DNA of 64,000 bases from Cyanobacteria bacterium FACHB-471 (GTDB lineage: Bacteria; Cyanobacteriota; Cyanobacteriia; Elainellales; Elainellaceae): contig JACJOC010000103.1 in the NCBI GenBank assembly GCA_014695345.1, forward strand, positions 1 to 64,000. The letters are read 5' to 3'. Position 1 is the stretch's first letter. Each line of letters begins with the position of its first letter. The notes below the pieces were generated by a model that had not been told where the DNA came from, ran no database searches, and saw only the letters and a program-made list of their open reading frames with translations. Of the stretch, positions 3,947-25,554 are shown in pieces. Both the position numbers and the translations under genes were made by a program.

Positions 3947-4001
3947 CAAAAGCCTGAATTTTTGGCGAAAGTTCAACTTTCGCCAAAAATTCAGGCTTTT
4001 G
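3947..4001. terminator. 55-bp perfect palindrome, probable two-way terminator
   Basis: Two 27-bp arms are exact complements around a single central base. Each arm has A/T-rich ends, so a hairpin read from either side is followed by T residues within or just after the stem. It lies between convergent genes (oxidoreductase ending at 3804 and the basic protein ending at 4117), as expected for a shared terminator. Confidence 0.75.
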
Positions 4002-11928: not shown

Positions 11929-11964
11929 GGCGGTGCGAAGCAGTTCCCCCTTTGGGGTAATCGC
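11929..11964 (-). repeat. 36-bp dispersed repeat, copy 1
   Basis: On the minus strand it reads GCGATTACCCCAAAGGGGG then AACTGCTTCGCACCGCC. A second copy at 25041-25076 differs by one base. The CCCC-GGGG core can form a short hairpin. The left end GCGAT is half of a HIP1 site. Confidence 0.8.
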
Positions 11965-14181: not shown

Positions 14182-14246
14182 AGGAGCTGATCAAGGTTGA
14201 TTTTTTGCGTACTCAGTACGCAAAAAATCAACCTTGATCAGCTCCT
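14182..14246. terminator. 65-bp perfect palindrome, probable terminator
   Basis: Two exact 32-bp arms around one central base, 6 bp after the oligopeptidase stop. A run of six T residues lies inside the left arm and six A in the right. The arms share no sequence with the palindrome at 3947 apart from the design (long arms, 1-nt centre, A/T block in the stem). Very long perfect palindromes are usually unstable in replication, so its retention is notable. Confidence 0.7.
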
Positions 14247-16401: not shown

Positions 16402-18108
16402 ATGAAAACTGCCATTAAATGGAAATACATTAAATATCTGTTTTGGCTAGGTCCAATACTGATCATCATGGGGCTTTCAGCCGGAGTGGTTGCTGGAAGT
16501 TGGGGTCCTTTACCTCTAGCTTTGATTATGGCTGGAGTTATCATTTCAGGGATTTGGCTGTTTTCTGAACCCACTGTCCTGAAAGGATTTTTGGATCGTC
16601 GTTCGACTCAAGCTGGCACCAACGCCCTAGCTGCAACCCTGGCGGTTTTGGTGATCTTGGGACTGATTAACTTCCTGGGTGTGCGCTACTCCAAGCAGGT
16701 TGACCTGACGGAAAATCAGCTATTTACGCTCTCACCTCAAACCCAGGAAGTTTTGCAAAACCTGGAACAGCCCGTCAAAGTGTGGGTGTTTGCCATTACG
16801 CCAAACCCAAACGATCGCAGACTGCTCGAAAACTATCAGCGGCAGAGCAATCAGTTTAGCTTTGAGTATGTTGACCCTCAGGCACGACCGGGACTAGCAC
16901 GAGATTTCGGGGTACAGCAGGCGGGTGAGGTCTATCTGGAAAGAGGCGAAAACCGGACATTCCTTCAGCAGATTGCTCAAGAGCCACTGTCAGAACGCAG
17001 AATTACCAATGCAGTTGGGCAAATCGCCAGCGATCGCCAACCCAAGGTTTATTTCCTTCAGGGACATGGAGAGCGCGCACTGGAGCCGGGGCAGGGTAGC
17101 TTCTCTCAAGCTTTGGGCAGTCTGGGGGATGAAAACTTTGTTGCCGAACCGCTGAACCTAGCTGAAAATCCAGACATTCCTGAAGACACAACCGTTTTAG
17201 TATTGGCTGGACCTCAGCGAGCACTGCTACCACCAGAAGTCACCGCCCTGCGAAACTATCTTCAGCGCAAAAGCGGACTGCTGTTAATGCTCGACCCCGA
17301 CACCGATCCGGGTTTAGGGGCACTGCTGCAAGACTGGGGCATCAGCCTGGACGATCGCCTGATTATTGACCCCAACGGACAGACAGCCGGAGTCAATGCA
17401 GCGGTCACCATCGTGACGCAGTACGGTGTTCACCCAATTACAGAAGAGTTTGGCGATGGCATTTCCTTTTATCCGCTGGCTCGACCGATTGGCGTAACTG
17501 AAACCCCAGAAGTAGAAGCCTCACCGCTGCTGCTGACGGGCGATCGCGTCCAGGCAAAGCCTATTCCCGAAAGTGGTGAGCTAAACTTTGACCCCAATCT
17601 TCCGCCGCAAGGTTCACTGACGTTGGGTGTGGCGCTGAGCCGTCCTGTACCCGACGAAGCACCACAAGCAGAAGCGAGCCCCAGCCCTACGCCATCCCCT
17701 TCACCTGAAGCATCAACGTCTCCTACGCCATCCCCTTCACCTGAAGCATCAGCGTCTCCTACACCATCCCCCTCACCTGAAGCATCAGCATCTCCAGACG
17801 CAGATGAAGCCACTGAAGCGGAGGACGATGAAACCGCATCGGAAACCAGACTAGTTGTGATTGGCAACTCTAGCTTTGCGACAGACGGACTGTTTGAGCA
17901 GCAGCTCAATGGCGATGTGTTTCTCAACTCGGTAAACTGGCTGAGCCAGCAAGATACTCAGGTGCTTTCCATTCGTCCCAAAGAGGCAACCAATCGCCGC
18001 ATCATCATGACACCTCGACAGCAAATCACCTCAGCCCTGACCGCACTGGTGATTTTGCCTGTGTTGGGCTTTGGGGCAGCAATTTTAGTTTGGCTACGGC
18101 GGCGATAA
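16402..18108 (+). CDS. GldG-family ABC auxiliary protein with Ser-Pro repeats
   Basis: A membrane helix pair near residues 12-55, a third helix near 73-90, a large extracytoplasmic domain (GldG/DUF4350-like: LTENQLFTLSPQTQEVL, VYFLQGHGER, LNSVNWLSQQ) and a C-terminal helix ending in RRR. GldG proteins are the third subunit of Gld-type ABC systems and have a periplasmic domain resembling sugar-free ThuA folds. Between residues 425 and 475 there is a Ser/Pro/Thr spacer made of three 36-nt DNA repeats. The 171-bp gap to the permease gene contains the inverted repeat at 16262. Confidence 0.88.
   Translation: MKTAIKWKYIKYLFWLGPILIIMGLSAGVVAGSWGPLPLALIMAGVIISGIWLFSEPTVLKGFLDRRSTQAGTNALAATLAVLVILGLINFLGVRYSKQVDLTENQLFTLSPQTQEVLQNLEQPVKVWVFAITPNPNDRRLLENYQRQSNQFSFEYVDPQARPGLARDFGVQQAGEVYLERGENRTFLQQIAQEPLSERRITNAVGQIASDRQPKVYFLQGHGERALEPGQGSFSQALGSLGDENFVAEPLNLAENPDIPEDTTVLVLAGPQRALLPPEVTALRNYLQRKSGLLLMLDPDTDPGLGALLQDWGISLDDRLIIDPNGQTAGVNAAVTIVTQYGVHPITEEFGDGISFYPLARPIGVTETPEVEASPLLLTGDRVQAKPIPESGELNFDPNLPPQGSLTLGVALSRPVPDEAPQAEASPSPTPSPSPEASTSPTPSPSPEASASPTPSPSPEASASPDADEATEAEDDETASETRLVVIGNSSFATDGLFEQQLNGDVFLNSVNWLSQQDTQVLSIRPKEATNRRIIMTPRQQITSALTALVILPVLGFGAAILVWLRRR
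17692..17796 (+). repeat. three 36-nt tandem repeats inside the GldG-like gene
   Basis: Units start at 17692, 17728 and 17764 (the last incomplete), each beginning CCATCCCC and encoding PSPSPEAS plus TSPT or ASPT. Copies differ by only a few third-position or Thr/Ala changes, which points to recent expansion by slippage. Copy number is likely to vary between strains. Confidence 0.9.
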
Positions 18109-24882: not shown

Positions 24883-25152
24883 TTACCTTCTCCGAGCGCG
24901 AGTCAAAATACTCATCACTTCACCAGAACTAGGTGTAGGTAAAAGCGGACTCCACGCGCTCACTTCAGCAAAGCCTCGATGATACAGGTCGTGAATCGTT
25001 TCAATTACACCATCGCGAGAGCCGATGATGAGAACTCGCAGGCGGTGCGAAGCAGTTCCCCCTATGGGGTAATCGCGCTCACTATTCTGAAGTGCAGAGA
25101 CTTCTCTCTCAACGGTGGATGCGTTGGGAGATTCCAAAAAACATTGAGACAT
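24883..25152 (-). CDS. short conserved cyanobacterial protein carrying a repeat in frame
   Basis: 89 residues. The C-terminal part, LRVLIIGSRDGVIETIHDLY then FAEVSAWSPLLPTP and GEVMSILTRA, is of a kind I recall from many cyanobacteria as a short protein of unknown function. The middle RDYPIGGTASHR is encoded entirely by the 36-bp dispersed repeat at 25041-25076, whose length keeps the frame. Typical relatives, as I remember them, start close to the IGSRDG strand, so the repeat may lie in a tolerant N-terminal extension. A likely cytoplasmic alpha/beta protein. Confidence 0.6.
   Translation of the reverse strand: MSQCFLESPNASTVEREVSALQNSERDYPIGGTASHRLRVLIIGSRDGVIETIHDLYHRGFAEVSAWSPLLPTPSSGEVMSILTRARRR
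25041..25076 (-). repeat. 36-bp dispersed repeat, copy 2, inside a coding frame
   Basis: Identical to the copy at 11929-11964 except for one base (A for T in the CCCC-GGGG hairpin loop). It adds twelve codons to the short conserved gene without breaking it. Confidence 0.85.
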
Positions 25153-25554
25153 AAGTTGTGACTCCTTAAGGTTCTTGAGGAAACCCCAAAAACCTAGCCA
25201 CCCCGCACTAATTCACGCGCTGCAATGAGTGAGAGAACTAAAAGTGAGTTGACTTTCACTTTCATGTCCTAAAGGATCAGCAACGCTTTTTTGACATGAC
25301 AAGTCGGGGTGGCTAAGGGAGTGTTAAAATTCACCGTTAGCCGCCAGACTGCTTGTACCAGTTTGGGGGTTAGTCGCTCATTGCTGCTCGCAACAGCTTT
25401 GAGCGGCGCTAGATCTTTGGGTTTAGTGGGGTTGCCGTGAGTAAAAAAGACAACCTTAACGTGAGAGCATATCTGAGCAGACGGTATTTAGTCAAGGTGA
25501 CAAGTTACAGAGTTTTTGAGCCAAGATAGGGACGTTCTGTCTCCGCGATTTGCT
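25153..25554. other. 402-bp spacer with an inverted-repeat element
   Basis: TAGCCACCCCG (25195-25205) and CGGGGTGGCTA (25305-25315) enclose about 100 bp that itself contains AAAGTGA...TCACTTT. The 126-bp unit 25193-25318 could be a small non-coding mobile element. To its right lies the promoter region of the lipoprotein gene; no other gene is seen. Confidence 0.5.

Follow-up and report, generated by a model that had tools for sequence, protein, structure and literature searches.

Comparison of filled and empty sites, within one genome and among its relatives, leads us to propose that the 36-bp repeat lying inside a short protein gene of this cyanobacterium is very probably a copy of a very small, SDR5-type mobile element that would insert at HIP1, the octamer GCGATCGC. 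The initial annotation had noted two copies, one base apart, in the window, the 64-kb stretch of DNA analysed here; both positions (Table 1) and the single-base difference are confirmed. It had taken the repeat as a 36-bp insert with a length that is a multiple of three. The multiple of three stands and the figure of 36 does not: the net insert is 27 nt, because the ends of the repeat, which had been noted to begin with a HIP1 half-site and to end near another, are the two halves of one interrupted HIP1. The 36 bp are made up of the 8-bp HIP1, the 27-nt insert and one shared flanking base. The reading frame of the host protein is unbroken, as had been claimed; of the twelve residues ascribed to the repeat, nine are added and three were already there. 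With these corrections the earlier interpretation is supported.

Table 1. Coordinates of the repeat copies and of the host gene within the window
Feature	Position	Strand	Basis
Repeat copy in gene: HIP1 split by the insert, minus-strand form GCGAT-TACCCCATAGGGGGAACTGCTTCGCAC-CGC plus one base	25041..25076	-	Pattern matches and shuffles
27-nt net insert, nine codons (YPIGGTASH)	25045..25071	-	Gap against paralogues
Second window copy, in spacer (27-nt insert, 11933-11959)	11929..11964	-	
89-aa short protein with insert, one of 19 family matches in the genome	24883-25152	-	
Structured leader RNA of host gene: multi-branched junction, ~160-nt core and ~80-nt loop insertion	25184..25422	-	RNA model match (154.6 bits); covariation
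Promoter-like TTGACT-18 nt-TATGCT upstream of leader, conserved in paralogues	25466..25495	-	Sequence

Copies of the repeat and their empty sites

The host is a HIP1-rich cyanobacterium, as the window holds 106 HIP1 octamers against 0.8 expected, and HIP1 is the commonest short motif of its genome (7.15 Mb, 118 contigs). When at most three mismatches are allowed, a 35-nt pattern has exactly 2 matches in the window, where shuffles expect 0.00, and 16 in the whole genome, where the reversed control gives 0; the 23-nt core alone has 35 genome matches against 2 in the reversed control. By inspection about 26 copies are genuine, and they are spread over genes and spacers. Their general form is GCGAT-TACCCCNNAGGGGGAACTGCTTCGCAY-CGC, in which TACCCCNNAGGGGGAACTGCTTCGCAY is the 27-nt unit (RTGCGAAGCAGTTCCCCCTNNGGGGTA on the reverse strand). 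The insert measures 27 nt in nearly all copies and 25 or 26 nt in two (L096, L088), so that its length is not wholly fixed. Some copies (L079, L087, L089, L092, L077) begin with GCGATCGCCCC or CGATCGCC and retain the whole or most of HIP1 at their left end, as if they formed a subfamily or had been partly converted. The repeat is present in 17 of 291 genomes sampled from the class, with strong matches in two leptolyngbyoid families (GTDB) and in none of the other families sampled; plasmid matches outside the cyanobacteria (weak, 84%, mostly in a LacI-type gene) were set aside as chance. A spacing scan over 0.92 Mb for other families of inserts interrupting HIP1 revealed no clear further one, the spacings n=21 and n=33 being slightly high. 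The window also contains perfect inverted repeats with a 1-nt loop at 14182-14246 (32-nt arms) and 3947-4001 (27-nt arms), as well as three tandem 36-nt units, again a multiple of three, at 17686-17793 (CCTACGCCATCCCCTTCACCTGAAGCATCA...).

Compared with its relatives, as initially suggested, the short protein has both paralogues and orthologues without the extra residues. Its gene is read on the minus strand, and only two aligned paralogues bear the insert, the window copy and one on contig C35. Where they can be aligned, five paralogues (L048-L052) show an uninterrupted, exact GCGATCGC where the insert lies in the window copy, and the remaining ones, 27 nt shorter and without insert, have near versions of this octamer. 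The paralogues read ...SERD-RLR... where the window protein reads ...SERD-YPIGGTASH-RLR...; the nine residues sit between RD and RLR, at the passage from a variable N-terminus to the conserved core, and the length difference is exactly 27 nt.

The joined flanks of 22 copies were also searched against 35 relatives, and the places recovered were fetched and aligned. This yielded 55 empty alleles at 13 loci, or possibly 12, one of them (L087) having been aligned as filled in G002. Within 90 bp of the empty-allele junctions lie 26 HIP1 octamers, 25 of which start exactly 3 bases before the junction, that is, directly on it; at the ~165 other positions there is a single HIP1 start. This supports the claim that insertion occurs at HIP1 sites. 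Eight loci have an exact HIP1 in one or more of their empty alleles, and eleven have CGATCG. At L075, and in many alleles of L072 and L078, the empty site of the relatives is only CGATCG-like or is not HIP1; such sites can mutate. For the spacer copy at 11929-11964 an orthologous empty site was looked for in relatives and none was found. Six sites (L076, L072, L082, L083, L087, L092) that are filled in G000 are likewise filled in G001 or G002, and others in G000 only, so that insertions of different ages, older and younger, occur together.

Point of entry, target and affinities

How would such an element enter its target? The 27-nt unit would enter HIP1 at GCGAT|CGC; seen from the complementary strand (GCG|ATCGC), the entry falls between nucleotides 3 and 4. 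The base preceding the final CGC varies among copies (T or C), and two HIP1 empty sites, those of the window paralogues and of L088, are filled by copies ending GCAC-CGC; this suggests that the variable base travels with the insert and not with the target. The assignment to GCGAT|CGC is made because that base seems to be part of the insert, and we infer the exact base of entry, since HIP1 and insert share bases. Paralogues and orthologues alike reveal a net gain of exactly the 27-nt unit, with no target-site duplication. The family combines one insertion point with many dispersed copies, exact empty sites and, for the 27-nt copies, an unchanged frame, and from the filled and empty alleles we infer its mobility. 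Gain, rather than precise loss, would account for nearly all of the filled/empty differences. HIP1, with its core CGATCG, would be recognised or cut as such, and a putative enzyme would act in trans, because the element itself codes for nothing. Since HIP1 within genes frequently translates as GDR or AIA, and since the insert amounts to nine codons that are open in most frames, many insertions would persist, adding a short peptide where the protein tolerates it.

With HIP1 arms of just 5 and 3 bp, and with inserts in unrelated genes that have no common flank and yet always occupy the same point of HIP1, it is unlikely that homologous recombination or gene conversion dispersed the copies among sites flanked by HIP1, the arms providing short homology, even though HIP1 is abundant enough for micro-homology and the window and C35 paralogues have an identical tract across the insert despite leaders of different length classes.

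Insertion by a mobile element at HIP1 would take a relaxed form in the related genus g6, where the core pattern without flanks finds 14 copies in G025 and 47 in G007. In these two genomes CGATCG with free outer bases, and also GATCGATC and TCGATCGA, are enriched, unlike the other genomes of the family, in which it is mainly the HIP1 octamer; CGATCG occurs often there whatever its outer bases, and over 100 kb of G025 only 63 of 469 such sites are HIP1. Among the g6 inserts (30 copies from two genomes, sampled by similarity) the left outer base is G in 2 of 23 and the right outer base is C in 20 of 24, compared in each case with 41% of CGATCG sites; the inserts lie mostly in HCGATCGC sites. Empty alleles in this genus include CCGATCGA, TCGATCGG and CCGATCGC, and at four of ten loci with an aligned empty allele there is no CGATCG at the junction. 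Judged by the bias of the outer bases together with the empty alleles, the element in g6 appears to target CGATCGC, the left base being free, and to have a polarity on this target. It is conceivable, and we put it forward tentatively as somewhat less than probable, that the target follows the CGATCG usage of each genome, as if directed by CGATCG-recognising machinery.

Small repeats targeted to HIP1 have already been reported in cyanobacteria: according to a passage of Elhai 2015 (PMC4390886) that cites Elhai 2008, SDR5 of Nostoc punctiforme inserts precisely between nucleotides 3 and 4 of HIP1. The repeat described here would share that insertion point as the passage gives it, and both are shorter than 30 nt, dispersed and devoid of coding capacity; filled and empty alleles, the mark of SDR5-type mobility, are likewise found. 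A difference lies in the relaxed CGATCG(C) target in g6, unlike the HIP1 target of SDR5. Small dispersed repeats of this type are reportedly 21-27 nt long, a range that accommodates the 27 nt seen here and the two copies of 25-26 nt. The structure of SDR5 is also said to be backed by compensatory changes, whereas in our element, which can be folded as a hairpin, pairing is no better than for independent columns and no convincing compensatory mutations were found among copies picked by sequence similarity. The repeat is best filed as a new family among the small dispersed repeats of SDR5 type, likened to SDR5 by description and insertion point and not by sequence. REPINs and MITEs are also short, non-autonomous and dispersed; the present repeat is unlike them in that it targets one octamer and no paired-REP layout is seen, and its exact 27-nt gain without target duplication places it outside both groups. 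Rickettsia palindromic elements (RPE), about 100-150 bp long against 27 nt here, do not include it either, and to our knowledge they do not lie at HIP1 and have no sequence relation to it. They do occur inside protein-coding genes (PMC2635572), as does the repeat, which is retained in frame.

Copies inside protein genes

Long open frames harbour most of the copies, and the proposal that the repeat can be kept in coding DNA holds for real genes and even for conserved domains. Pfam places inserts within SRAP, nucleotide-sugar dehydratase (GDP_Man_Dehyd/Epimerase) and histidine-kinase HATPase_c domains, and also in GH38 mannosidase, cellulose-synthase-like, NAPRTase, WD40 and CNNM/CorC proteins. 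The commonest reading in genes is GD-YPxGGTASH-R, in which HIP1 is read as GDR; AITPKGELLRIA is a further reading, as is AMRSSSPFGVIA from the opposite strand. As at least three reading frames are in use (YPKGGTASH, TPKGELLRI, RSSSPFGVI), tolerance is the simplest view, rather than selection for a peptide, and the nine-residue peptide is most likely near-neutral. Domestication, with the peptide selected for instance as a linker or protein tag, would fit the frequent retention in long open reading frames and the prevalence of the YPxGGTASH frame, but we consider it very improbable in view of this variety of frames and of relatives that do without the peptide; the coil predicted around the insert of the short protein comes from a single-sequence structure model of low confidence (pLDDT 49). 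That the extra residues are ancestral, lost by the relatives and only by coincidence similar to the repeat elsewhere has nothing to commend it beyond the existence of two insert-bearing paralogues and can be dismissed, since all other aligned paralogues and the same-genus copies lack the insert, several with an exact empty GCGATCGC, unrelated genes contain these 27 nt in several frames, and no nine residues encoded by repeat-unlike DNA were seen in distant orthologues among the family matches and in the alignment. Both this outcome and an absence of HIP1 preference had been named in advance as contrary to the earlier reading; each was looked for, and neither occurred.

The host module and wider significance

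Compared with the putatively mobile insert, the host module offers more that is new. The host gene consists, in order, of a promoter-like element, a multi-branched leader RNA (four branches closed off by helix P1), a Shine-Dalgarno-like GGAG and the open reading frame. An alignment of 19 leaders that reaches other genera has 85% of its cells paired; 22 pairs are changed on both sides against 13.1 in shuffles, which do not keep relatedness (0 of 500 as high), and the covariation score is 0.255 against 0.06-0.09 for slid partners, a control that does keep it. Rfam searches gave nothing credible at E <=5 for the leader region of the window and nothing at E <=1 for eight relatives. A covariance model detects 29 RNA copies in the genome itself and has matches in 23 of 40 genomes; at 28 of 31 further RNA loci the RNA is followed by a small open reading frame of one diverse family, the exceptions being L350, L364 and the frame-broken L368. 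The proteins are 65-115 aa long, with the core xLxIGS...LH..GYAE...WS.PLP.P...EVM.IL.R, and the pair of RNA and protein recurs in several cyanobacterial families. Profile searches of Pfam, NCBIfam, PHROGs, PADLOC and PDB found no convincing relative of the short protein, and a literature search on the RNA-protein module returned nothing relevant. The short protein probably belongs to an undescribed, many-copy cyanobacterial module of a ~160-nt RNA and a 65-115-aa protein. The RNA may act like a riboswitch in the leader and control a family of small proteins, or RNA and protein may form a pair that is selfish or regulatory; a cis-acting leader, riboswitch-like or autoregulatory, seems likeliest. 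In about half of the paralogues an ~80-nt insertion occupies the P5 loop of the leader (window about 25220-25300, minus strand; present in L048-L050, L052, L054, L056 and L058, absent from L047, L051, L053 and L060), and it looks like another small dispersed element.

What are the implications of so small an insert? If mobile as proposed, it shows clearly how a mobile DNA element, among the smallest of its kind, enters protein genes, and paralogues in a single genome supply the empty sites, which reveal target, polarity and frame directly. The host gene in turn points to a widespread RNA and small-protein module for which Rfam, Pfam and NCBIfam give no match at the thresholds applied. The genus with relaxed CGATCG usage permits asking whether HIP1 itself or its CGATCG core would be recognised by the insertion machinery, a question relevant to the still unexplained role of HIP1 and of its solitary methyltransferases.
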